DNA of 64,000 bases from Turnera subulata. Its lineage: Eukaryota > Streptophyta > Magnoliopsida > Malpighiales > Passifloraceae. The stretch is from assembly GCA_028386065.3 (NCBI GenBank), contig JAKUCV010007469.1, positions 78,258 to 142,257 of the forward strand, written 5' to 3'. Below are positions 24,957-42,485 of this stretch, one piece after another. Position 1 is the first letter of the stretch, and each line of letters starts with the position of its first letter. The notes under the pieces were generated by a model, which was not told the origin of the DNA, searched no databases, and saw only the letters and a program-made list of their open reading frames with translations. Position numbers and translations under genes: made by a program.

Positions 24957-26208
24957 TGTTAGAATAGGTGCCCTACGCTAGAGGGGGGTGAATAGCGTTT
25001 TATGGACAAAATCAAAAACTTGCAGCAAATAATTTCGGAATTGAAAGAATGAAGGATACACCAAATTTTATACTGGTTCACACACACAATTTCTGTGGCT
25101 AGTCCAGTCCTCCGAGAGACTCTCTCGGAGAATTAACTATCTAAGTTAAGCTTTCGGGTGCTTAACAAACCGTTTACAGACCTAGAGCTCGAGTCACACG
25201 AAACTCTCCTTACTTGCTTGAAGGTACCTCACTTCAAGACTTTCCTCACAGAAAGAAAGAACCTCTCCCTATGAATTATAGCACGGGAACTAACCTCCCA
25301 AATAATGTATGGCAACAAAATATAACACTCAAAACAGAAACTCTCTCAAGAGTGGTTATTGAGCAACAATGTAAGCACTATAAGGCAACTCTCAATTTTC
25401 AAAGGTATTAGCTCATAAAAAGTGTATGAATGTTTTTCAATGTATGCTTGATCATATGAAGAGTTGATATTTTTAAAGAGAGGTTTAATGCCTCTATTTA
25501 TAGCTTAAAAAACTTATATGGCTGTTGGGAACAAGTTTTGAATTAGACAAGATAACATGCAAGATGGAAAGGGATTTTTGATTCTAACGGCACAACATCG
25601 ATGTTGGGTATCACAACATCGATATTTGTCCGTTGGATTTGAATTATTGAAGCCAACGGTCACTAAAACATCGATGTTTGCATAGCCAACATCGATGTTT
25701 TCAGGAACAACATCGATGTTTACAGTACCAACATCGATGTTTTGGTGCTTCGCAAAAAAAAAAAATATTGTAATGTTGATTTGTAAGAACATCGATGTTT
25801 CAACAAATAACATCGATGTTATTTTGTTGAATTGTCATAACATTGATGTTATGTAATCCAACATCGATGTTGTGGTGCTTCGCTAAATTTTAAAGAAACT
25901 TTGAAGATCAGAACATCAATGTTGGGGTACAAAACATCGATGTTTAGTGCTTAAAACTTGTTTTTGTGTTGGATGATTGGTGAAGTGATGCATGAGGAAA
26001 CACCGATTTTGTTTGAGCTAATAACTTGGAAGATTTAAGTGTTAACCTTGTACAAATGAGTTCTAAGTTCTATTTCAATTCTTGTGCCCTTCTTCACTTC
26101 TCATTTTGAGCTTCTTGAGTGATTTCTTTTTGCTTGGATTGTTGTGATTGGTTTGTCAATATCAAAACCTGTGTGAAGTAAAACATGCATTAGCAACATA
26201 GTGTAACA
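24957..26208 (-). repeat. 3' LTR of SIRE-2 with ATCGAT palindrome array
   Basis: On the plus strand it begins TGTTAGAATAGGTGCCCTAC and ends GTGTAACA, so TG...CA on the element strand. Its 5'-most plus-strand part (CCCTACGCTAGAGGGGGGTG) matches the end of the SIRE-3 LTR. It holds about twelve copies of AACATCGATGTT or one-base variants between 25594 and 25944, mostly paired 21 bp apart, including a run of four at 25669, 25690, 25711 and 25732. Confidence 0.9.
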
Positions 26209-26435: not shown

Positions 26436-27250
26436 TTAGAGTTGAGAAGGAGGTGTTCTAGCTTGCGTCTTCATCATCATCTTCGTTCCCACCACCATCC
26501 ACATCCATCGGGTCATTGCTCTCATTTCCGATGTATTCATCATCATCATTGTCGAAGTTGTAACCTTGAAAGGTAGTGTGATATGGTGGAGGTGTGTACT
26601 TGACACGAGCAAAGTAGGAGCGAAGGGCGTGACCCTGTCGTTGAACCTCCGTGTCAATCCGATCAATTGATCGTCCCATGCTATTGACACTTAATTGGAG
26701 ATTGCGGATGGAGGCAGCAATAGAGTCAAGTGTTGCAGCAGGGGCTTGGTCTTGAGAAGCGGGTACTGGAGGAGCTGCTACTCGGGCATGCCTTGGTGTT
26801 TCAGCGGATGATCCAGTGTGGAAGGTGGCGTCATCAATTGCCCAGAGCTTGGAATGAGGGGTGAGTTCACCAACATGAGGATTTATCCCTGCACTCATCA
26901 AGATAGATACAACCAAGAAAGCATAAGGAAGGGGATGATTATTGGACGTATGTTCAGCCATATGCATGAGCACAAATCATGCCCAATTGATGGGAGCCCC
27001 GTGGATGATGGCATGAATGATCTTATCGTCTTCAATTATGAAGTTCGTGTGATTCCCGGGTCTTGGTTTGATCACCCGAGTGAGCAGATAGAAGAGCACC
27101 CTATATTCCGGGTTGATGGAATGGATTGTCGGCCGGTTGTAGCGGTTTCATTTTACTTCCGTGAAACCGAGGTCAGTGAGAAGAGTAGCTTCATGAAGTG
27201 TGAGAAAATGAAGAGGAAAGTCCAAATTTTTTTAGTGGAGACCAAAATAT
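26436..27250 (-). pseudogene. Sirevirus env-like / plant transposon protein remnant
   Basis: The minus-strand frame includes YRVLFYLLTRVIKPRPGNH, then IHAIIHGAPINWA, a stop, and HPLPYAFLVVSILMSAGI. This resembles the plant transposon protein domain found in the extra ORF of Sireviruses. A Pro/Ala linker, a helical segment with LDSIAASIRNLQ and a very acidic end (DNDDDEY, then NEDDDEDAS) follow, ending at about 26458. Stops before 27130 show decay. The function of this extra protein in Sireviruses is not established. Confidence 0.6.
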
Positions 27251-27309: not shown

Positions 27310-27756
27310 AACATCGATGTTGGAGGAAGAAACATCGATGTGGGACACTGTGCAATGGCTAATTTTTTTAAACAACAGGGGCAGAACATCAATGTGTAAA
27401 CGAAAACATCGATGTGGGACACTGTGCAACGACTATTTTTTTTAACAACAGCGTCTAAACATTGATGTTTTAAAAAAATAACATCGATGTTTGAGACGTT
27501 CGGCCAAAACATTTTGTTGAATCTCAACGTCAGAACATCGATGTGTTACTGTGAAACATCGATGTCAGAAACTTTCGGCCGAGTCCACTTAATCTGCAGA
27601 ACATCGATGTGTGTTATGGCAACATCGTTGTTGTGACCGTTAAAAAAAATGGATTGAGAAAACTCCCCTGAACATCGATGTGGCATTGGGTAACATCGAT
27701 GTTGTCATACTTCGGCCTCATATAACATCGATGTTGTTATCAGAAACATCGATGTT
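27310..27756. repeat. Internal ATCGAT palindrome array of SIRE-2
   Basis: Seven doublets of AACATCGATGTT or close variants, starting near 27310, 27385, 27458, 27534, 27599, 27670 and 27723. Centres within a doublet are mostly 21 bp apart (20 or 22 in two). Several right-hand copies end GTG or GTC instead of GTT, keeping the ACATCGATGT core. Confidence 0.92.
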
Positions 27757-28079: not shown

Positions 28080-29138
28080 TCACACAATAATTAGACCAAT
28101 GCCAAGATTTTCAAACATCGAATCCTTGAGGATCAAAAATATTTTGGAGGATTGATGATAGAGATCTGCTTTTCCTGTTACCAATGAAAGATATCTTTGG
28201 CTTTCTCGGAGGTGATGAATCAATAATTAATTTGATGCCAAGATTTTCAAAAAGCAAATCTGTGATGATCGAAGAGTGTTTGGAGGGATGTGGAATGAAA
28301 TCTATTGGTCTGGTTACCGAGGAAAAAAAAATTCTATAAGAGTCAAAGCGGTAGAACGTGTGTACTCAAAAGATCATTTCAAAAGAAGATTTTCTAACCC
28401 ACATACAGAGAAAAGTATCAAAATTATTTGAACCCAAAAAAAAAAAAAAAAAGGCCTTCCCCATCATCAGTGTTTTTTGTTCAAGGTGCTTCCTTAGGAA
28501 GACGTAACCAATTAGCCTATAGCCTAATTCAAGAACGTCTAGAGGAATTGCCAAATGAGCTTGGCAGAATTCCTTGCTTAGTTTTTGTCGATGAGCTCTA
28601 CTTGTCCAGATTCTTTGTTTCTTCTATGGAAGAAACAATCTTCCTGGAGGATCAAAGTACACTTAGAACCTCTTTTTACGGCTCTTTTGACTCCATCATG
28701 TTTTTCATTTCTGAAAGACTTGAGGGATTTCAGTTAGAGCCCACCTGTCAGTACCTAGAGCAAGGTAGTTATTACCAGATTACAATGACTGCCCAGAAGG
28801 TGCCTCCTGTAAGTAGGTTACCTCCAACCTGGCCAAAGATGCGATTGCTGGTGTGGAACTGCAGAGGAATCACCCGGCGCTCCCAGGAATTTGTAGGTAC
28901 CTTGAGGGATCTCAAAAATTAATATAAGCCCAATATGATATTACTTACGGAGACCCAGTGGCAACCCGAGGATGATCATGGTGTTCTTCCACTTTGTTTT
29001 GCTCCAGCAAACCGATTTGAACTGCATGATCAGAACAACTCTGGAGGCATGTGGTTTTCATGGGATGACAGCCTTAGAATCAACATAGCTAGTGATTCTA
29101 ATAATAGTTTTAGAGTCAATGCTGAGCCCGCAAGATAA
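28080..29138 (+). pseudogene. Antisense ORF copy 1: unknown domain plus half LINE endonuclease
   Basis: From about 28450 a plus-strand frame of some 230 codons encodes an unrecognised domain (FFVQGASLGRRNQLAYSL, LVFVDELYLSRFF, SIMFFISER) followed by the N-terminal half of an exo/endonuclease (LLVWNCRG; ILLTETQW with a metal-binding Glu). It stops at 29136-29138 before the C-terminal catalytic motifs. One in-frame TAA interrupts it at 28920-28922. Upstream, MPRFS-like words appear twice (near 28110 and 28230). It is antisense to SIRE-2. A homologue with the same end lies at 35941-36624. WNCRG and LLTET are L1-type endonuclease motifs; the first domain is unknown to me. Confidence 0.7.
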
Positions 29139-29436: not shown

Positions 29437-30708
29437 TTAAAATTTTGTGTCCATAAATTCAATAGCTATGTCTCCCTTGAGAACATGATCTCTAATAAAC
29501 TGATGTCTAATGTCAATATGTTTAGTCCTTGAGTGTAAGAATGGATTCTTAGTTAGACTTATGGCACTAGTATTGTCACACCTAAGAGGAATGTGATTGA
29601 TGTTAAGACCATAATCCTCTAGTTGTTGTTTCATCCAAATGATTTGAGCACAACAACTACCAGCTGCAATGTATTCTGCCTCGATGGTGGATAATGCTAC
29701 ACTAGCTTGTTTCTTACTAAACCAAGAGACTAAGGAGCCGCCGAGTAAGTGACAAGTTCCACTAGTACTCTTACGATCTAGTTTGCATCCTACAAAGTCT
29801 GAGTCAGAATAGCCTACGAGTTGAAGTGTAGAACCTTTTTGATACCATAGTCCAACATTAGTTGTGCCTATTAGGTATTTCATAATTCTTTTAATTGCCT
29901 TAAGATGAGACCCTTTAGGGCATGCTTGATACCTAGCACATAAACAAACGCTAAACATAATGTTTGGCCTACTTGCAGTTAAGTAGAGAAGGGATCCGAT
30001 CATAGCTCGATACTTTTTGACCTCAACTTCCTTACCTTTCTCATCCTTGTCTAGATGTTCAGAAGTGCTCATTGGTGTGGCCATTTCCTTTGATCCGTCC
30101 ATTTCAAAGCGCTTAAGCAATTCCTTGCAATACTTTGATTGTGAGATGAAAGTGCCTTCCTTCATTTGTTTGACTTGCAGTCCCAAAAAGAAGGTCAATT
30201 CTCCCATCATGGACATCTCAAAGTCGCTGGTCATCATAGCAGAGAATTCCTTGCACAAGGATATGTTAGTAGCACCGAAAATGATGTCATCTACATAAAT
30301 TTCTATTAAGAGGATGTCATTGTATTTACTTTTAATAAAGAGTGTAGTATCAACCTTTCCCCTTTTGAACCCATTGTCCAAAATAAATTTGCTCAAGCGT
30401 TCATACCAAGCTCTAGGAGCTTGCTTAAGACCGTAGAGTGCTTTCTTAAGTTTGAAGACATGATCAGGAAATGCATGATCTTCAAAGCCTGAGGGTTGAT
30501 TAACATACACTTCTTCTGGAATGAAGCCATTTAGAAATGCACTTTTAACATCCATTTGATACAACTTAAAGTCCATTGATGATGCAAATGCAAGCAATAA
30601 GCGAATGGCTTCTAATCGTGCAACGGGTGCATATGTTTCTTCAAAATCGATTCCCTCTTCTTGATTATAACCTTTTGCTACTAACCTAGCTTTGTTTCTA
30701 GTTATTAT
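29437..30708 (-). pseudogene. SIRE-2 reverse transcriptase and RNase H
   Basis: The frame enters at 30708 with [18 protein letters not shown], then [11 protein letters not shown], the catalytic [10 protein letters not shown], RNase H motifs [17 protein letters not shown] and [14 protein letters not shown], and ends at about 29437 near FMDTKF. Over 386 codons from 30597 it has no stop, making it the best preserved pol piece in the window. It lacks the C-terminal DIFTKPL tail and everything upstream of RT. Closest in style to the Sirevirus (SIRE/Maximus) RT, like SIRE-1. Confidence 0.92.
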
Positions 30709-31467
30709 GCTCTCGGGTCGGTGCTGGTGTCAGCGTGCCTTGGTGCGTTTTGGTCCGGTTTGGCGCGCCTGTAGGTGCTGGTTGGCGTGCCCGCGGGTGT
30801 GCCTTGGTCTCTCGTTGGTGCGCGCTGGCGGGTCGGCTGGGGCGCGCTGGCCTGCACGTTGGTGCACCTTTGTGCGTGCTGATGCGCGGCTGGTGCGTCT
30901 TGGCTAGCCCGTTGGTGCGCTACTTGTCCTCCTTATGCACCAATGGTACGTAAAAACCCAATTTTTTTGTTTATTCGATTTTTTTTGTGTTTTTCTATTT
31001 TTTTCGATTTTTATCTTTTTAATGTAATATGAAAAAGTGAAAAATCCTAGGGTGCTAGAAAAATAAAGAAAATCCCAAAAACTAATCCTAAAAATTTTCT
31101 CTCTATTTTAGCCTAGTTATGAGCTTGCCATCGTAACCTACGGGTAAGTGCTAAATATATATGGATGCATCAAAACAAATAGAATCCAACAAAGCCCTCA
31201 AGCAAATCATTACACAAATTACGCAGAAAAGTAAAAGTTTGAGTTTAAGAAAAGCTTCTCTGATTAATTTGATGAAGAATTCGTCTTGACCCTTCCTCAA
31301 TGTGGTTGATCTCTCCTCGAAAAGTTCCTCCTTTCTTGCAATCTGCATAGACTCAAAAACAAAAACAAAAATTAATAAAAAGAAAAGACTGAAAATACTA
31401 AATTGTGGGTTGCCTCCCACACAATGCTTCTTTACTGTCGTCTTAGCTGGACTGGATGGATGGGCGG
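30709..31467 (-). other. Gypsy sequence between integrase and third ORF, with GC-rich repeat
   Basis: 30709-30930 is strikingly GC-rich with irregular repeats of TTGGTGCGCGCTGG type. 30960-31140 is T- and A-rich. 31390-31470 includes GGGTTGCCTCCCACACAAT, matching the GTGGGAGGCAACCC motif common behind gypsy integrase genes. No complete ORF; the GC-rich part could be a Pro/Ala/Arg-rich coding remnant. Confidence 0.5.
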
Positions 31468-31963: not shown

Positions 31964-33486
31964 TGTTAGAACTCATAGTTCATTACAGGTTTTGATAATT
32001 GACAAACCAATTCCAGATCATGACAAAGATGAAGGAAAAAGAATGAAGCAAAAAGAAATGAAAGCAATCCTCAAGTCAAAGAAACCAAATCAAGAGCAAA
32101 GGATCAAAGTGAATGAGCACAAGAATTGAAGAGCCAAGAAATAAGAGTTAGATCCATAAATTGTACAAGGTATAACACTCAACTCTTCTAGGACATTGGC
32201 TCAAAATAAGATGAATTTTGCTCATGCATAACATAACATACTTCCAAGCATAAAAATATTTTTCGAGCCATGAACATCGATGTTATGGATTTAAACATCG
32301 ATGTTCCTGCCTTTGCACAATTTTTCAAAACAGGCAGAAGGCTCAGAACATCGATGTTGGCATCCCAAACATCGATGTTCTAGTGACCGTTGCTTTTAAA
32401 ACTAGTCACAACATCGATGTTCCCATTTGTAACATCGATGTTCCATATTGGTCAGTTTTCAATTTGATTTTGTCGAACCAAAATAACATCGATGTTGTGG
32501 ATTTAAACATCGATGTTCCTGCCGTTGAACAATTCTTCAAAACAGGCAGTAGGCTAATAACATCGATGTTGGACTCCCAAACATCGATGTTCTCATGACC
32601 GATGCATTTGAAAACACTTTTGCATAAGCACAACATCGATGTTCTATTTCATAACATCGATGTTCTTTAAATACTCAGCTTGAATCATTTTTCACAGAAG
32701 CAAAATAACATCGATGTTGTAATGAAAACATCGATGTTCTTCACAAATCAATTTTCATTTCATTTTCACAGAATCAAAATAACATCGATGTTGGGATGGA
32801 GAACATCGATGATTTAGTTACCGTTAGCCCACAATTCAAATTTAATGGGCAAAACATCGATGTTCTACCTTTAAACATCGATGTTTTAGCCGTTGAGCAA
32901 ACAACTTTTCAGCACCCACTATGTTTTGTTTAAGATTTTTTTTGGGTGGATTTAAAACGGCTCTATAACTTTTCAGAGCTATAAATTGAGCATTTTTAGC
33001 TCTGTTTCAAGATGAATAAACTCTCAACATTCAAGCATTCATTCCATACATTCATCAAAATTATTATTGAGCCAATATCCTATTGAGGATTTGAGAGTTG
33101 CCTTTTAGAGCTTAATCTTGTATACTCAAATCTACTCTTTGAGAGGGTTCTTTGTTTGAGTGATTGAATTGTATATTCATACACCTTAAGGGAGGTTAGT
33201 TCCCTTGTTGAGATTCATAGGGAGAGGGTATATCTTCCTGTGTGAGAAGTCTTGAAGTGAGGTATCTTCAAGAAAGAGTGCTGAAGTTCATGTGACTTGA
33301 ACTCTCAGGTTTAGGATTCTTGTGACTAGAATTCCTAGGTTGTAACGGTTTGTTAAGCACCCGTAAGCTTAACACTAGATAGTGAAATCTTCAAGTGAGA
33401 CTTGAAGGACTGGATTAGCCACAAGTTAGTTGTGTGTGAACCAGTATAAAAATTCTTGTGTCCTTCAATCTTTCAATTCCGCAATT
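31964..33486 (+). repeat. SIRE-3 LTR A with nine ATCGAT doublets
   Basis: Starts TGTTAGAACTCATAGTTC and is colinear with LTR B until the sequence gap. About two dozen single-base differences were counted against LTR B. The palindrome array spans 32273-32885: nine doublets, eighteen palindromes, doublet starts about every 64-76 bp. Doublets 1-3 and 4-6 form a higher-order repeat of about 212 bp, sharing CAAAACAGGCAG. Confidence 0.93.
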
Positions 33487-34031
33487 NNNNNNNNNNNNNN
33501 NNNNNNNNNNNNNNNNNNNNNNNNNNNNNNNNNNNNNNNNNNNNNNNNNNNNNNNNNNNNNNNNNNNNNNNNNNNNNNNNNNNNNNNNNNNNNNNNNNNN
33601 NNNNNNNNNNNNNNNNNNNNNNNNNNNNNNNNNNNNNNNNNNNNNNNNNNNNNNNNNNNNNNNNNNNNNNNNNNNNNNNNNNNNNNNNNNNNNNNNNNNN
33701 NNNNNNNNNNNNNNNNNNNNNNNNNNNNNNNNNNNNNNNNNNNNNNNNNNNNNNNNNNNNNNNNNNNNNNNNNNNNNNNNNNNNNNNNNNNNNNNNNNNN
33801 NNNNNNNNNNNNNNNNNNNNNNNNNNNNNNNNNNNNNNNNNNNNNNNNNNNNNNNNNNNNNNNNNNNNNNNNNNNNNNNNNNNNNNNNNNNNNNNNNNNN
33901 NNNNNNNNNNNNNNNNNNNNNNNNNNNNNNNNNNNNNNNNNNNNNNNNNNNNNNNNNNNNNNNNNNNNNNNNNNNNNNNNNNNNNNNNNNNNNNNNNNNN
34001 NNNNNNNNNNNNNNNNNNNNNNNNNNNNNNN
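33487..34031. other. Assembly gap (545 N)
   Basis: Run of N. By comparison with LTR B, about 75 bp of LTR A, the primer site and the gag N-terminus should lie here. The right edge falls inside a 279-bp gag tandem repeat, so collapsed repeat copies may explain the gap and its true length may differ. Confidence 0.95.
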
Positions 34032-35094
34032 TGAAGAGCTGCAAGATGCATTTAGTGAAATATATAGTAAATTCATTTCAGTTTCTAAGGTCAATAAGAA
34101 TTTAAAGAAACAAATTACAACCTTAGAAAATGATAATGAGAAATTATCAAATGATAAGGATGAGTTATCAAGTAAGATTGATAAGCTTGAAAAAGAAAAG
34201 CATCAAGAAGAGACTGTCAAGCAAGATGAGACTGTCAGCCTTTGTTTCATGGCAAAGAAAGAATCTCCAGAAGAGGTAAGTACTTCCTATTCGAGTGATG
34301 ATTATACATTTGAAGAGCTGCAAGATGCATTTAGTGAAATATATAGTAAATTCATTTCAGTTTCTAAGGTCAATAAGAATTTAAAGAAACAAATTACAAC
34401 CTTAGAAAATGATAATGAGAAATTATTAAATGATAAGGATGAGTTATCAAGTAAGATTGATAAGCTTGAAAAAGAAAAGCATGCTCTCAATATGTCTTGC
34501 AATGAACTTAATGAGAAAATATCCTCGAATGTATGTGCTTGTGTTGAATTGGGAAAAGAGAATGAATTTCTTAAAAATCAAGTTGATGATCTGAAGAAAA
34601 CAATAGAGAAATTTACTAATGGCAGAGATAGTCTTAATCTTCTCCTAGGACAACAAAGAAGTCCAACACAAAAAGAAGGATTGGGTGCATCTAATGTGTC
34701 AAATGATGTCAAACCTGCTATGCTTAATGCTAAGACACATAAACATGGTGCTTCATCTTCTACTCATGATACTAGATCACATGTTCATGACACAAGATCA
34801 CACATTCATTATAGAAGGTCATATGCTCAAATTGCCAAACCAAATACAAGTAGTGGAAAAGTTCACTATGCTAAATTGTATGCTTACAATGTTAGATCAA
34901 ATGCTAATGTTACAAGACCACATGTACACAACGCTAAAAATGAAAGTTCTCATTTTACTAAACCTAGGAAACATGTGACTCAATTTAGGGAAAACAAGAT
35001 CTTACCTAGGCAAGACAAGTTAAGTAGAGATTACAAACATAGACAAAACAACAACTACTGTCAACCTAGGAGAATGCATAATCCTAATCAATAA
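34032..35094 (+). pseudogene. SIRE-3 gag, C-terminal part with coiled coil
   Basis: An open frame of about 354 codons after the gap. It starts in a heptad-rich coiled coil (KVNKNLKKQITTLENDNEKL), repeated as two 93-codon units beginning at 34032 and 34311 with almost no difference. A further helix follows (ENEFLKNQVDDLKKTIEKF), then a basic His/Asn/Arg-rich tail (SHVHDTRSHIHYRRSYAQIA) and TAA at 35092-35094. Sirevirus gag proteins have such coiled coils. No zinc knuckle or protease follows; sequence after the stop is non-coding. Partial because of the gap. Confidence 0.8.
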
Positions 35095-35368: not shown

Positions 35369-35585
35369 AACATCGATGTTTAACAAGCAACATCGATGTT
35401 CCCATGAGAACCGCCAAGCCATAAATCAAGCATGCACATCGATGTTTAGTATCAAACATCGATGTTCGGTAAGAACTTTATTTATCCAGTAGTCTTTAAA
35501 CATCAATGTTATTCATTCCAAGCTGTTTAAAATTTTCTGTCTAATGGTTAAAAACATCGATATCTCATTCTTGAACATCGATGTT
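35369..35585. repeat. Internal ATCGAT palindromes of SIRE-3
   Basis: Doublets at 35369/35389, 35435/35455 and 35553/35574, plus a single variant near 35499 (AACATCAATGTT). Spacing within doublets is 20-21 bp. The positions correspond to the pre-3'-LTR array of SIRE-2. Confidence 0.88.
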
Positions 35586-35940: not shown

Positions 35941-36624
35941 CTAACGATTCGGTTCAGTTTTTACAGTGAAGCCATTAGGAGTATTAACTATATTAACCCT
36001 AATGCTATGATTCCAAGCAAACCACATTCCACCTGAGTTGTTCTGGCCAGGAAGCTCGAACCGTTGTGTTGGTGGAAAGCGAAGAGGGATAGCTCCGTGG
36101 TCTCCGGTTTGCTGCCATTGAGTCTCCGTGAGCAGAACCATATTTGGTTTATATTGGTTCTTCAGGTCTCGTAGGGTTCAAACAAAATCTTGGGAACGTG
36201 CTGTGATACCTCTGCAGTTCCACACCAAAAGGCGAACCTTTGGCCAAATGGGCGCTACTCCAGATACTCGAGGAATGCTCTGAGCCGTCATTGTAATCTG
36301 GTAATGACTGCCCTTGTTCAAAGTCTGGTAGGTTGGTTCCAACTGAAGCTCCTAAAACCTTTCAGAGATAAAAAACATTGTGGAATTAGCCGTACCATAG
36401 TAGGATGCTCGCAGGGTTTGTTGATGATCCAGGAAGATGACCTCTTCCATAGGGGTGATAAAGAATCGAGACGAATAAATCTCATCTACGAAGACAAGAC
36501 GAGGAATTCTTGCTAGTTCCTCTGGCAATGGCCCTTGTTGCTCATTTACAATGCTGAAGGCCAACCGATTTCTCCTACCTACGTTTGCACCGTCAACAAA
36601 AAAGACAGTGGAAGGGGAATGCAT
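35941..36624 (-). pseudogene. Antisense ORF copy 2: unknown domain plus half LINE endonuclease
   Basis: One minus-strand frame of 228 codons from ATG at 36624 to TAG at 35941-35943. The first domain (FFVDGANVGRRNRLAFSI, LVFVDEIYSSRFF, STMFFISER) is followed by LLVWNCRG, VLLTETQW and NNSGGMWFAW. Two in-frame stops (TAG after the first domain, TGA before LRDLKN) kill this copy. Same order and same end point as 28450-29138, and again antisense to its Sirevirus host. Upstream on the same strand lie a TATA-like TATAAATA (36706-36713) and a short frame with MPRFS and VWRGLPLN (36754-36966), the latter recalling LINE ORF1 DUF4283 sequence. Function unknown. Confidence 0.7.
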
Positions 36625-37249: not shown

Positions 37250-37598
37250 GACCAAGAGAAAGGGGGAATAAGGCTTGCTGAAGAAGTAACATAGTGAGGA
37301 AGAAGCTACTGATGAAGATGATGATAATGATGGAAACTAGGAACCATCTTTCTAAACCCTTATCCTTGTTATCCTTTATGCTGTGTTTTCCATAAAATAC
37401 TTTGCCATATGCATGAACTTAGGGGGAATTATAAATCATATCTTAAGGGGGAAGAATAAATATGTGCATCATCATTTTTTTTGCTAATGCCAAAAGGGGG
37501 AAGATAAGAAGAAGTATATGCATCAAGATAGGGGGAATTATTGTTATAAATAATGGCATATACATCTAGTTGTTTGTCATTATCAAAAAGGGAGAAAT
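37250..37598 (+). other. SIRE-3 acidic tail remnant and polypurine blocks
   Basis: A short frame ends EEEATDEDDDNDGN at about 37340, like the acidic end of the SIRE-2 env-like remnant. Polypurine blocks follow: near 37255-37268, 37421-37427, 37444-37455, 37490-37506, 37529-37537 and finally AAAAAGGGAGAAAT (37585-37598) touching LTR B. Confidence 0.7.
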
Positions 37599-39195
37599 TG
37601 TTAGAACTCATAGTTCATTACAGGTTTTGATAATTGACAAACCAATTCCAGATCATGACAAAGATGAAGGAAAAAGAATGAAGCAAAAAGAAATGAAAGC
37701 AATCCTCAAGTCAAAGAAACCAAATCAAGAGCAAAGGATCAAAGTGAATGACCACAAGAATTGAAGAGCCAAGAAAGAAGAGTTAGATCCATAAATTGTA
37801 CAAGCTATAACACTCAACTCTTCTAGGACATTGGCTCAATATAAGATGAATTTTGCTCATGCATAACATAACATACTTCCAAGCATAAAAATGTTTTTCG
37901 AGCCATGAACATCGATGTTATGGATTTAAACATCGATGTTCCTGCCTTTGCACAATTTTTCAAAACAGGCAGAAGGCTCAGAACATCGATGTTGGCATCC
38001 CAAACATCGATGTTCTAGTGACCGTTGCTTTTAAAACTAGTCACAACATCGATGTTCCCATTTGTAACATCGATGTTCCATATTGGTCAGTTTTCAATTT
38101 GATTTTGTCGAACCAAAATAACATCGATGTTGTGGATTTAAACATTGATGTTCCTGCCTTTGAACAATTCTTCAAAACAGGCAGTAGGCTAATAACATCG
38201 ATGTTGGAATCCCAAACATCGATGTTCTCATGACCGTTGCATTTGAAAAAACTTTTGCATAAGCACAACATCGATGTTCTACTTCATAACATCGATGTTC
38301 TTCAAATACTCAGCTTCAATCATTTTTCACAGAAGCAAAATAACATCGATGTTGTAATGAAAACATCGATGTTCTTCACAGATCAGTTTTCATTTCATTT
38401 TCACAGAATCAAAATAACATCGATGTTGGGATGGAGAACATCGATGTTTTAGTTACCGTTAGCCCAAAATTCAAATTGAATGGGCAAAACATCGATGTTC
38501 TACCTTTAAACATCGATGTTTTAGCCGTTGAGCAAACAACTTTTCAGCACCCACTATGTTTTGTTTAAGATTGTTTTTGGGTGGATTTAAAACGGCTCTA
38601 TAACTTTTCAGAGCTATAAATTGAGCATTTTTAGCTCTATTTCAAGATGAATAAACTCTCAACATTCAAGCATTCATTCCATACATTCCTCAAAATTATT
38701 ATTGAGCCAATATCCTATTGAGGATTTGAGAGTTGCCTTTTAGAGCTTAATCTTGTATACTCAAATCTACACTTTGAGAGGGTTCTTTGTTTGAGTGATT
38801 GAATTGTATATTCATACACCTTAAGGGAGGTTAGTTCCCTTGTTGAGATTCATAGGGAGAGGGTATATCTTCCTGTGTGAGAAGTCTTGAAGTGAGGTAT
38901 CTTCAAGCAAGAGTGCTGAAGTTCATGTGACTTGAACTCTCAGGTTTAGGATTCTTGTGACTAGAGTTCCTAGGTTGTAACGGTTTGTTAAGCACCCGTA
39001 AGCTTAACACTAGATAGTGAAATCTTCAAGTGAGACTTGAAGGACTGGATTAGCCACAAGTTAGTTGTGTGTGAACCAGTATAAAAATTCTTGTGTCCTT
39101 CAATCTTTCAATTCCGCAATTATTTCCTGCTTATTTTGTTTTAATCCGAAAAACGCTATTCACCCCCCCTCTAGCGTAGGGCTATTGTTCTAACA
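37599..39195 (+). repeat. SIRE-3 LTR B (1597 bp) with nine ATCGAT doublets
   Basis: TGTTAGAACTCATAG at the start and GGGCTATTGTTCTAACA at the end. The array spans 37908-38520 with the same nine doublets as LTR A. One copy has decayed to AACATTGATGTT near 38141. The end contains CACCCCCCCTCTAGCG, the C-rich block typical of Sirevirus LTR ends. Confidence 0.95.
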
Positions 39196-39197
39196 AT

Positions 39198-39210
39198 TGG
39201 TAGCGGAGCC
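39198..39210 (+). promoter_or_regulatory. Primer binding site, TGGTAGCGGAGCC
   Basis: Two bases after LTR B. It resembles the initiator-Met site TGGTATCAGAGCC with two changes; the identical core occurs in three other elements of this window. Confidence 0.8.
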
Positions 39211-39251
39211 TAACTCTCTGAAAGACCTAACCGTTTGAGAGGAAAGTTTCT

Positions 39252-41649: not shown

Positions 41650-42207
41650 AACATCGATGTCTAACAGTGAACATCGATGTTGTGAGAATCTGATTCTCGC
41701 CAACCACTTGGCATTGCTCATGAACATCGATGTCCTAGCTTGAACATCGATGTCCAATGGCCTCTGGAACTCAAGAACATCGATGTCTTGATCTGAACAT
41801 CGATGTTCTAAGGCTCTGGTGCTCCAAACTATTTGGCAGAGCTCAAGAACATCGATATTAGGTTCTTAAACATCGATGTTGGAAAATTCCGAAGGTCCAA
41901 AAACTTGGCAGTAGTTTTAAACATCGATGTCTAACGTTTAAACATCGATGTTTGAGACTTCTGGAACTCAAGAACATCGATGTCCATTGCTGAACATCGA
42001 TGTCCATGAGAATCTGGAGTCTCAAAACAATCTGACAGAAGGCATGAACATCGATGTTGCAACTGGAACATCGATGTTCAATCCTTTCTGCCAAGGCCAC
42101 TCGACATGAGAACATCGATGTTTGTCTCACAACATCGATGTTCAGTGGTCACGGCCAAGGCAAATCTTAATGTGAACATCGATGTTGATCTGATGAACAT
42201 CGATGTC
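41650..42207. repeat. ATCGAT palindrome array behind the primer site
   Basis: Nine doublets of the ACATCGATGT core starting near 41650, 41723, 41776, 41849, 41919, 41974, 42046, 42111 and 42174. Within-doublet spacing is 20 or 21 bp. Most copies read GAACATCGATGTC or GAACATCGATGTT. The surrounding spacer differs from the Sirevirus arrays, so this is a separate array of the same motif in another element family. Confidence 0.93.
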
Positions 42208-42485
42208 CTGGCCCTGCTGCACTAGAACGATAATCGTTCTATACACAAACCGACAATCGATTTTTCCGCGTTCGACTTACTGCCAATAACATCTTGATTG
42301 ATATCACATACCAATCAAGTTCATGTTGTCAAAACACTTTTGACAAAACAACCTCAACATATATCACATATACAAAAGGAATTCAATATATCATGATCAT
42401 GTTACATCATATATATTTGCAGGTACATATCACACATATGCACAACAAATTCGGTTTAGAACTTCACAAGAGGCTCCGCTACCAC

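Follow-up and report, generated by a model that had tools for sequence, protein, structure and literature searches.

Palindrome Arrays and Retrotransposons in the Window

The window, by which we mean the whole analysed stretch of 64,000 nucleotides from Turnera subulata, contains six arrays of a 12-bp palindrome, AACATCGATGTT, with 88 sites in total at up to two mismatches. Across the window as a whole there are 90 matches at this threshold against 3.96 expected, a number that none of 100 shuffled sequences reached. The elements that carry the arrays, and the features that serve to identify them, are as follows:

24957–26208, minus strand: LTR of Sirevirus B
25594–25944: array in the LTR of Sirevirus B, 12 sites
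26461–26976, minus strand: open frame of 172 aa, env-like by position, lying between polypurine tracts and the linker array of Sirevirus B
27310–27756: array in the linker of Sirevirus B, 14 sites, upstream of the 172-aa frame
29440–30729, minus strand: Copia reverse transcriptase region (PF07727), taken as Sirevirus B from its order and strand
31964–33486, plus strand: readable part of the first LTR of Sirevirus A, the remainder being masked as N
32273–32885: array in the first LTR of Sirevirus A, 18 palindromes in nine doublets (the main feature)
35369–35585: array in the linker of Sirevirus A, 7 sites, partly decayed
37261–37536, plus strand: five clustered AGGGGGA polypurine tracts ahead of the second LTR of Sirevirus A
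37599–39195, plus strand: second LTR of Sirevirus A, TG...CA
37908–38520: array in the second LTR of Sirevirus A, 18 sites, 17 of them exact
39196–39209, plus strand: ATTGG and TAGCGGAGC, a variant primer-binding site, following the second LTR of Sirevirus A
41650–42207: array of a Copia element of group 3 (see below), 18 sites, downstream of its primer-binding site
42473–42484, minus strand: primer-binding site of the group-3 Copia element

The first-pass annotation placed the main array inside a Sirevirus LTR, and the landmarks of Sirevirus A bear this out. Multiple polypurine tracts are present, since a AGGGAGAA tract stands at the LTR junction in addition to the five AGGGGGA copies; the published Sirevirus octamer is AGGGGGAG, with a final A in Tnd-1 (PMC2829016, cited sections). 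The attachment site reads AGGGAGAA-AT-TG (37597–37600), giving the AT/TG junction typical of Sireviruses, and the CA-ATTGG junction at 39194–39200 gives the Sirevirus CA/ATTGG arrangement, followed by a primer-binding site, TAGCGGAGC, that differs from the Sirevirus TATCAGAGC at two positions. The C-rich integrase signal, expected some 21 bp before the LTR end, is represented by CCCCCCC at 39163–39169, which by eye stands some 26 bp short of the CA end (39195). A pol frame of Sirevirus A was not found in the window.

The two LTRs of Sirevirus A are 98.4% identical over the 1523 readable bp (37599–39121 in the second copy), and their arrays are broken at different sites, each being exact where the other is broken. 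In the first copy, the LTR end and the primer-binding site are hidden by a run of 545 N bases (33487–34031). Within the gag frame, the coiled-coil part contains a 172-bp direct duplication (34032–34203 and 34311–34482, 99.4% identical). A primer-binding site also follows the second LTR (37599–39250), so that the layout is LTR-internal-LTR-internal; the second internal part ends near 39.36 kb at the integrase region of another element.

Four arrays besides those in the Sirevirus A LTRs go unmentioned in the first-pass annotation of the main array (25594–25944, 27310–27756, 35369–35585 and 41650–42207). In Sirevirus B, copies of the palindrome in the linker precede an env-like frame, which is env-like by position only and matches no Pfam family at E 0.001. 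PF07727 is found in Sirevirus B and in the relative L054, and their reverse-transcriptase pieces are 72% identical.

Two further observations concern these elements. Sirevirus linkers in the genome contain an open frame antisense to the element (28398–28922, plus strand; relative at 35999–36529; L054:5402–6001 and L067:1337–2101, minus strand); the copy in L067 matches PF03372 (endonuclease/exonuclease/phosphatase) weakly, below the cut-off, and the window copy does not match it. In addition, a primer-binding-site variant, TGGTAGCGGAGC, replaces the usual TGGTATCAGAGC in Sirevirus A, in groups 2, 3 and 5 and in short-LTR pairs; it occurs in the window at 39198 and, on the minus strand, at 42473, 52777 and 60402, as well as in L036, L037, L041, L046 and L059–L061.

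The Array in the First LTR of Sirevirus A

The main array, with its doublets and putative accessory elements, is arranged as follows:

32273–32305: doublet 1, spacing 21 bp
32333–32339, minus strand: putative accessory half-site TTCTGCC, 7 bp outside doublet 2
32347–32379: doublet 2, spacing 21 bp
32410–32442: doublet 3, spacing 21 bp
32485–32517: doublet 4, spacing 21 bp
32545–32551, minus strand: putative accessory half-site TACTGCC, 7 bp outside doublet 5
32559–32591: doublet 5, spacing 21 bp
32632–32664: doublet 6, spacing 21 bp
32693–32699, minus strand: putative weaker accessory half-site TTCTGTG, 7 bp outside doublet 7
32707–32738: doublet 7, spacing 20 bp
32767–32773, minus strand: putative weaker accessory half-site TTCTGTG, 7 bp outside doublet 8
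32781–32813: doublet 8, spacing 21 bp, one mismatch in the second site
32853–32885: doublet 9, spacing 21 bp
32980–32987, plus strand: putative TATA box, judged by eye, about 95 bp past the array

The array had been described as eighteen perfect palindromes in nine doublets. Both counts hold, but perfection does not extend to every site: 17 of the 18 are exact copies of AACATCGATGTT, which has the core ATCGAT, and the site at 32802 has one mismatch and ends in GAT. The centre spacing within doublets was reproduced on the window sequence, being 21 bp in eight and 20 bp in one (32707/32727). Successive doublets lie 74, 63, 75, 74, 73, 75, 74 and 72 bp apart, so the regular repeat reported at first stands, with a range of 63–75 bp in place of the 64–76 bp given then.

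That Sireviruses carry repeated palindromes, as the first-pass annotation noted, has been in print since 2010: palindromic repeated motifs (RMs) in Sirevirus LTRs were described by Bousios et al. (2010; PMC2829016), who leave their role open in the sections cited here. According to the same sections, RMs occur in at least 8 copies per element at 66–100% identity, commonly above 85%, and lie for the most part ahead of the TATA box, in the LTR's upper half, and also in the linker before env (PMC2829016). With 18 copies, the first of them 309 bp into the LTR, the array agrees with the copy number (at least 8) and start (200–400 bp) of Sirevirus RMs.

Retrotransposon Families That Carry the Array

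The wider distribution was studied in 42 arrays drawn from contigs among the matches listed for the palindrome or for exact doublets, covering most of these places but not all. The sample was picked for the palindrome or an exact doublet and not for likeness to the window, and one array came with a flank; loci that would have been counted twice were dropped (L002–L004, which overlap L001; L005–L006, which lie in the window; and L072–L073, which repeat L046). With the palindromes masked, the arrays were grouped by blastn (E 1e-6, 80 bp or more), and they fell into five groups with no mutual similarity at this threshold.

Group 1 comprises 21 arrays chained to Sirevirus LTRs, part of which were checked one by one, and L054 and L067, both Sirevirus linkers, make up group 4. 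Group 2 represents a Copia family that has gag and pol; its array lies at the end of the LTR, directly before the primer-binding site. In group 3 the array lies downstream of the primer-binding site, and adjoining pol frames in one contig (L048/L055) mark this group as a second Copia family. In group 5, a family of gypsy type with a PF03732 gag, the array separates the primer-binding site from gag; 11 of the 12 fetched copies of this family, the query's own place counted, have the array, L080 being the one without, and the gaps measure 20–22, 41–42 and 51–55 bp, plus one of 63 bp in the query's own place.

Reverse-transcriptase identity among Sirevirus, group 2 and group 3 is 32–57%, and groups 2 and 3 are judged to be non-Sirevirus from this distance and from their layout, without a tree. 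Three Copia groups that are only distantly related share the lattice with one gypsy-type family, and it stands at different non-coding places in them. The original placement in one Sirevirus LTR was correct as far as it went, but the same layout recurs in linkers, in other Copia elements and in a gypsy-type element. RMs have been reported as Sirevirus-specific (PMC2829016, cited sections); this array is also present in the gypsy-type family and in the two Copia groups judged non-Sirevirus.

Spacers of different groups resemble one another somewhat beyond their shared column make-up: the observed similarity was reached by 1 of 300 controls for groups 1 and 3, by 8 for groups 2 and 3, by 18 for groups 1 and 5 and by 23 for groups 3 and 5. 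For groups 1 and 2 (73 of 300) and groups 2 and 5 (240 of 300), spacer similarity did not rise above column make-up. Because some excess exists, part of the sharing could be due to pieces of arrays having been exchanged.

Helical Spacing at the Scale of the Genome

The genome (518.7 Mb) contains 76,101 exact palindromes, compared with 63 copies of the reversed word. As the 42 sampled arrays hold 363 exact copies, this suggests an estimated 8,800 or so arrays genome-wide. Exact pairs 12–23 bp apart number 31,061, of which 29,517 are spaced by 20 or 21 bp (20,153 at 21 bp and 9,364 at 20 bp), leaving 836 at 12–19 bp and 708 at 22–23 bp; 50 pairs of the 12–19 bp class were among the matches listed, and all of these were spaced by 18 or 19 bp.

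Spacing in other copies is likewise non-random. Across the 42 arrays, 427 of 438 gaps fall at 18–22, 30–33, 41–46 or 51–55 bp, the remaining 11 being 35, 58 (three), 63, 66, 73, 74 (two), 79 and 83 bp, and none of the 438 falls at 23–29, 36–40 or 47–50 bp. Since doublets were mostly the criterion by which arrays were sampled, only the gaps between doublets are free of selection bias. The phase test accordingly used 221 distinct between-doublet spacers clustered by identity, with the gypsy-type copies of group 5 added and 5000 jittered controls. When spacers were collapsed at 75% identity (59 clusters), the best period was 10.50 bp (R 0.65), a score reached by none of the 5000 controls; at 70% (32 clusters) it was 10.45 bp (R 0.58; 3 of 5000 controls). 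At 65% the spacers chain into 9 clusters and power is lost, 1667 of 5000 controls reaching the period score. An earlier phase test, on a small sample chosen mostly by similarity, was weak: at 10.5 bp its score was reached by 228 of 5000 controls when spacers formed 20 clusters and by 56 of 5000 when they formed 9, and a free-period test on that sample failed, its score being reached by 1350 and 522 of 2000 controls.

Pairwise distances of 60–120 bp have a best period of 10.50 bp overall and of 10.5, 10.6 and 10.4 bp in groups 1 to 3, with a phase near 0. Coherence is local and fades past 200 bp (R 0.13 in group 3). A short gap within a doublet tends to be paired with a long neighbouring gap, such that the spread of the sum is smaller than in all 5000 permutations (239 pairs). 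The array copies are related by descent, which limits the independence of these spacing statistics. Helical phasing is wider than first described, in that it holds between doublets and not just within them.

A Second Half-Site at a Fixed Offset

Spacers of 51–55 bp show a preference for TTC[T/G]GCC at bases 8–14 counted outward from the palindrome, in mirror image at their two ends (54 thinned spacers). Genome-wide, the palindrome followed by seven bases and TTCKGCC occurs 3,461 times (1690 + 1771), compared with 90 occurrences (43 + 47) of TTCKGCC at offsets 8–16 combined, related copies being counted repeatedly in both figures. In the 77 fetched loci, the half-site lies at offset 7 in 59 cases and at offsets 0–6 in 3. 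It was found in all four groups tested: C at +10 together with G at +12, at one or both ends, is present in 58%, 100%, 83% and 60% of thinned spacers in groups 1, 2, 3 and 5 (n = 59, 12, 18 and 15), compared with 0–1% per position for this pair elsewhere in the spacer. A further motif, CCGTT/AACGG, which we take to be MYB-site-like, is present in 26% of group-1 spacers (e.g., 25627–25666 in the window), in 4% of flank windows and in no spacers of groups 2 and 3; because it is enriched in group 1 only, it was kept out of the common grammar.

A 10.5-bp lattice is also what one would expect if phased AA/TT and CG steps set the rotation of nucleosomes on bent DNA, with no need for a sequence-specific protein, and the common doublet repeat of 73–74 bp, which is half a nucleosome, would fit as well. 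The spacers do show a weak in-phase A/T signal (WW amplitude 0.0141, against a maximum of 0.0128 in 300 shuffles; 199 spacers, many of them related), but it has a phase near 0, whereas AA/TT within the palindrome has the opposite phase. Doublets also repeat at about 53 and 63 bp, and both the exact conservation of 12 bp and the second motif at an exact offset exceed what positioning would need. We consider nucleosome positioning a very improbable explanation, and set it aside because the spacer A/T signal is weak and in the wrong register.

Conservation of the Palindromes and of Their Spacing

Substitutions at non-CpG sites were counted in 14 aligned LTR copies. Changes amounted to 33 of 2486 positions in palindromes, 245 of 1076 in spacers within doublets and 621 of 4215 in spacers between doublets, with 346 of 3615 in the upstream and 403 of 8252 in the downstream flank, so that spacers change at 11–17 times the rate of palindromes. 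Misaligned registers may raise the spacer values; a recheck on four of the 14 copies, at 91% identity or above, gave 5 of 720, 35 of 317, 78 of 1223, 52 of 1151 and 94 of 2358 in the same order. Palindromes thus diverge far more slowly than spacers in both sets. Of the two outcomes that the first-pass annotation had named as telling against it, random spacing in other family members and equally fast divergence of palindromes and spacers, neither was observed.

Selection on geometry had been proposed on the ground that spacers vary in sequence but not in length, and the length data agree with it, as does the non-random spacing of other copies. Distances between neighbouring palindromes (n = 170, from 10 of the 14 LTRs) have net changes of −2 to +2 bp or else of +21, +52 or +54 bp; net changes of 3–13 bp were found in 0 of 170. 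The changes of +21, +52 and +54 bp are whole phased units. Overlapping 53-bp windows of the flanks change by at least 3 bp in 18.5% of cases upstream and 1.0% downstream, so the downstream flank, which is better kept than the upstream one, also has few long indels.

Duplication of whole doublet-plus-spacer units, visible in these insertions, is what a functionless, recombination-prone minisatellite would produce if it were copied within and between elements and inherited its spacing from the copied unit, and some likeness of spacers between groups points the same way. Copying, however, would preserve spacers along with palindromes, contrary to the 11- to 17-fold difference in rate; moreover, different spacer clusters keep the same phase, and the half-site is specific to offset 7. 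Passive spread of this kind is quite improbable as an explanation of the array.

The first-pass annotation offered RNA hairpins as one of two models, with a 12-bp stem and a loop of 9 nt (8–9 nt on the measured spacings). The stem would form in the transcript between the palindromes of a doublet, and such hairpins might yield small RNAs or a structural signal. The RNA of the array does fold well (z −10.7 against 20 shuffles), though this is expected of any palindrome array; in groups 2, 3 and 5 the primer-binding site is next to the array or precedes it, and palindrome regions of maize Sireviruses have been called hotspots of sRNA mapping (PMC5311732, cited sections). Hairpins, however, do not require doublets to be phased at 10.5 bp, and in the leaders of groups 3 and 5 each palindrome would add an upstream ATG. 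A change in one palindrome was matched by a pairing-keeping change in its partner in 1 of 88 variant doublets, compared with symmetric changes within a single palindrome in 6 of 88, some of them from related copies; this comparison has little power because many variants are likely to be post-insertion decay. The hairpin model finds no support in these results, and we regard it as quite improbable.

A Proposed Phased Platform for a DNA-Binding Protein

The other model put forward at the outset, a DNA site that a protein would occupy as paired dimers on one face of the helix, agrees best with the 10.5-bp phasing and the conservation of the palindromes. From these sequence features we infer that the array, on its 10.5-bp helical lattice, is likely a rigid docking platform for a putative dimeric DNA-binding protein aligned on one face of the helix. 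The 12-bp dyad would bind a homodimer, two dyads would hold a pair of touching dimers two helical turns apart, and doublets added at whole-turn distances would extend these into a one-sided row. The outer half-site, at its fixed distance, could be read by a putative partner protein or by a second domain. As the same grammar is found upstream of a TATA box, in a linker, at an LTR end and in a leader, the platform would be independent of position, and the bound array may act as an enhancer or as a silencing-escape element for the retrotransposon promoter. The binding factor would be supplied by the host, a proposal made because this is the simplest way for unrelated elements to share the array.

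A different source of the protein can be envisioned, in which one retrotransposon family encodes a trans-acting anti-silencing factor, like VANC, that targets the array, and other families parasitise it. Dense short motifs in non-coding DNA and their sharing across families would fit such a scheme, and VANC targets are themselves short motifs built up as tandem repeats in non-coding regions (PMC5735166, PMC10398659, cited sections). On the other hand, coding content differs among the carrier families, and the cited sections of PMC5735166 make no mention of palindromes, spacing or periodicity. We hold this scheme to be unlikely.

Returning to the docking platform, a broader proposal can be put forward tentatively, as a possibility that we rate below even: the palindrome doublet with its 7-bp outer half-site may be a common regulatory port of the retrotransposons of this genome, built or borrowed by Copia and gypsy lineages at different non-coding positions, and recruiting a single complex, of host or transposon origin, by which thousands of copies would be transcribed or released from silencing together. 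The lattice, the partner site at an exact offset and the sharing between Copia and gypsy elements together make a concrete, testable prediction, namely a specific protein pair on one face of the DNA. Finding such a protein would show how one factor could activate, or keep unsilenced, thousands of retrotransposon copies.

Comparison with Known Systems

VANDALs are DNA transposons. Like the present arrays, the VANC targets of Arabidopsis VANDALs are short non-coding repeats whose density matters; they differ in that the motif, YAGTATTAY, is non-palindromic, its binding protein is known and element-encoded, and phasing goes unreported in the cited sections (PMC5735166, PMC10398659).

Searches of the literature found the 12-mer AACATCGATGTT in no plant paper; the matches concern the glucocorticoid receptor, the sequence occurring in a receptor oligonucleotide (PMC9976882, cited sections), with a second match on the same receptor (PMC10297449). 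A search with a 10-mer gave no plant-repeat paper, as judged on titles and the beginnings of abstracts, and nothing usable on a plant factor binding ATCGAT was among the matches listed. No paper on helically phased LTR palindromes was found among the matches listed in these searches, the spacing content of Bousios et al. (2016) being outside their scope.

The closest relatives are the Sirevirus RMs. The RM of tobacco Tnd-1, ACAATCGATTGT, present eight times, has the ATCGAT core in common with AACATCGATGTT (PMC2829016, Table 3), and the arrays of Sirevirus B, in LTR and linker, occupy both of the places given for RMs by Bousios et al. (2010; PMC2829016). AACATCGATGTT lacks the CGG-CCG core that 12 of the 13 listed RMs have; the Tnd-1 RM lacks it too, and the cited sections do not describe helical phasing, doublets or a half-site at a fixed offset for Sirevirus RMs (PMC2829016). 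The LTR palindromes of maize Sireviruses (Bousios et al. 2016, via PMC5311732, cited sections) are likewise clustered in the regulatory part of the LTR, but the OPIE-2/PREM-2 motif differs in sequence from AACATCGATGTT, and the maize palindromes are discussed there through small RNAs.

The array is of the Sirevirus-repeated-motif type and extends beyond Sireviruses, with a geometry and a host range that were not found in the prior literature searched. Rigid helical spacing for cooperating proteins is a property of enhanceosome-type composite sites in the enhancers of single-copy genes. Those sites belong to single-copy enhancers; the arrangement described here has rigid helical spacing as well and is repeated thousands of times across transposon families.
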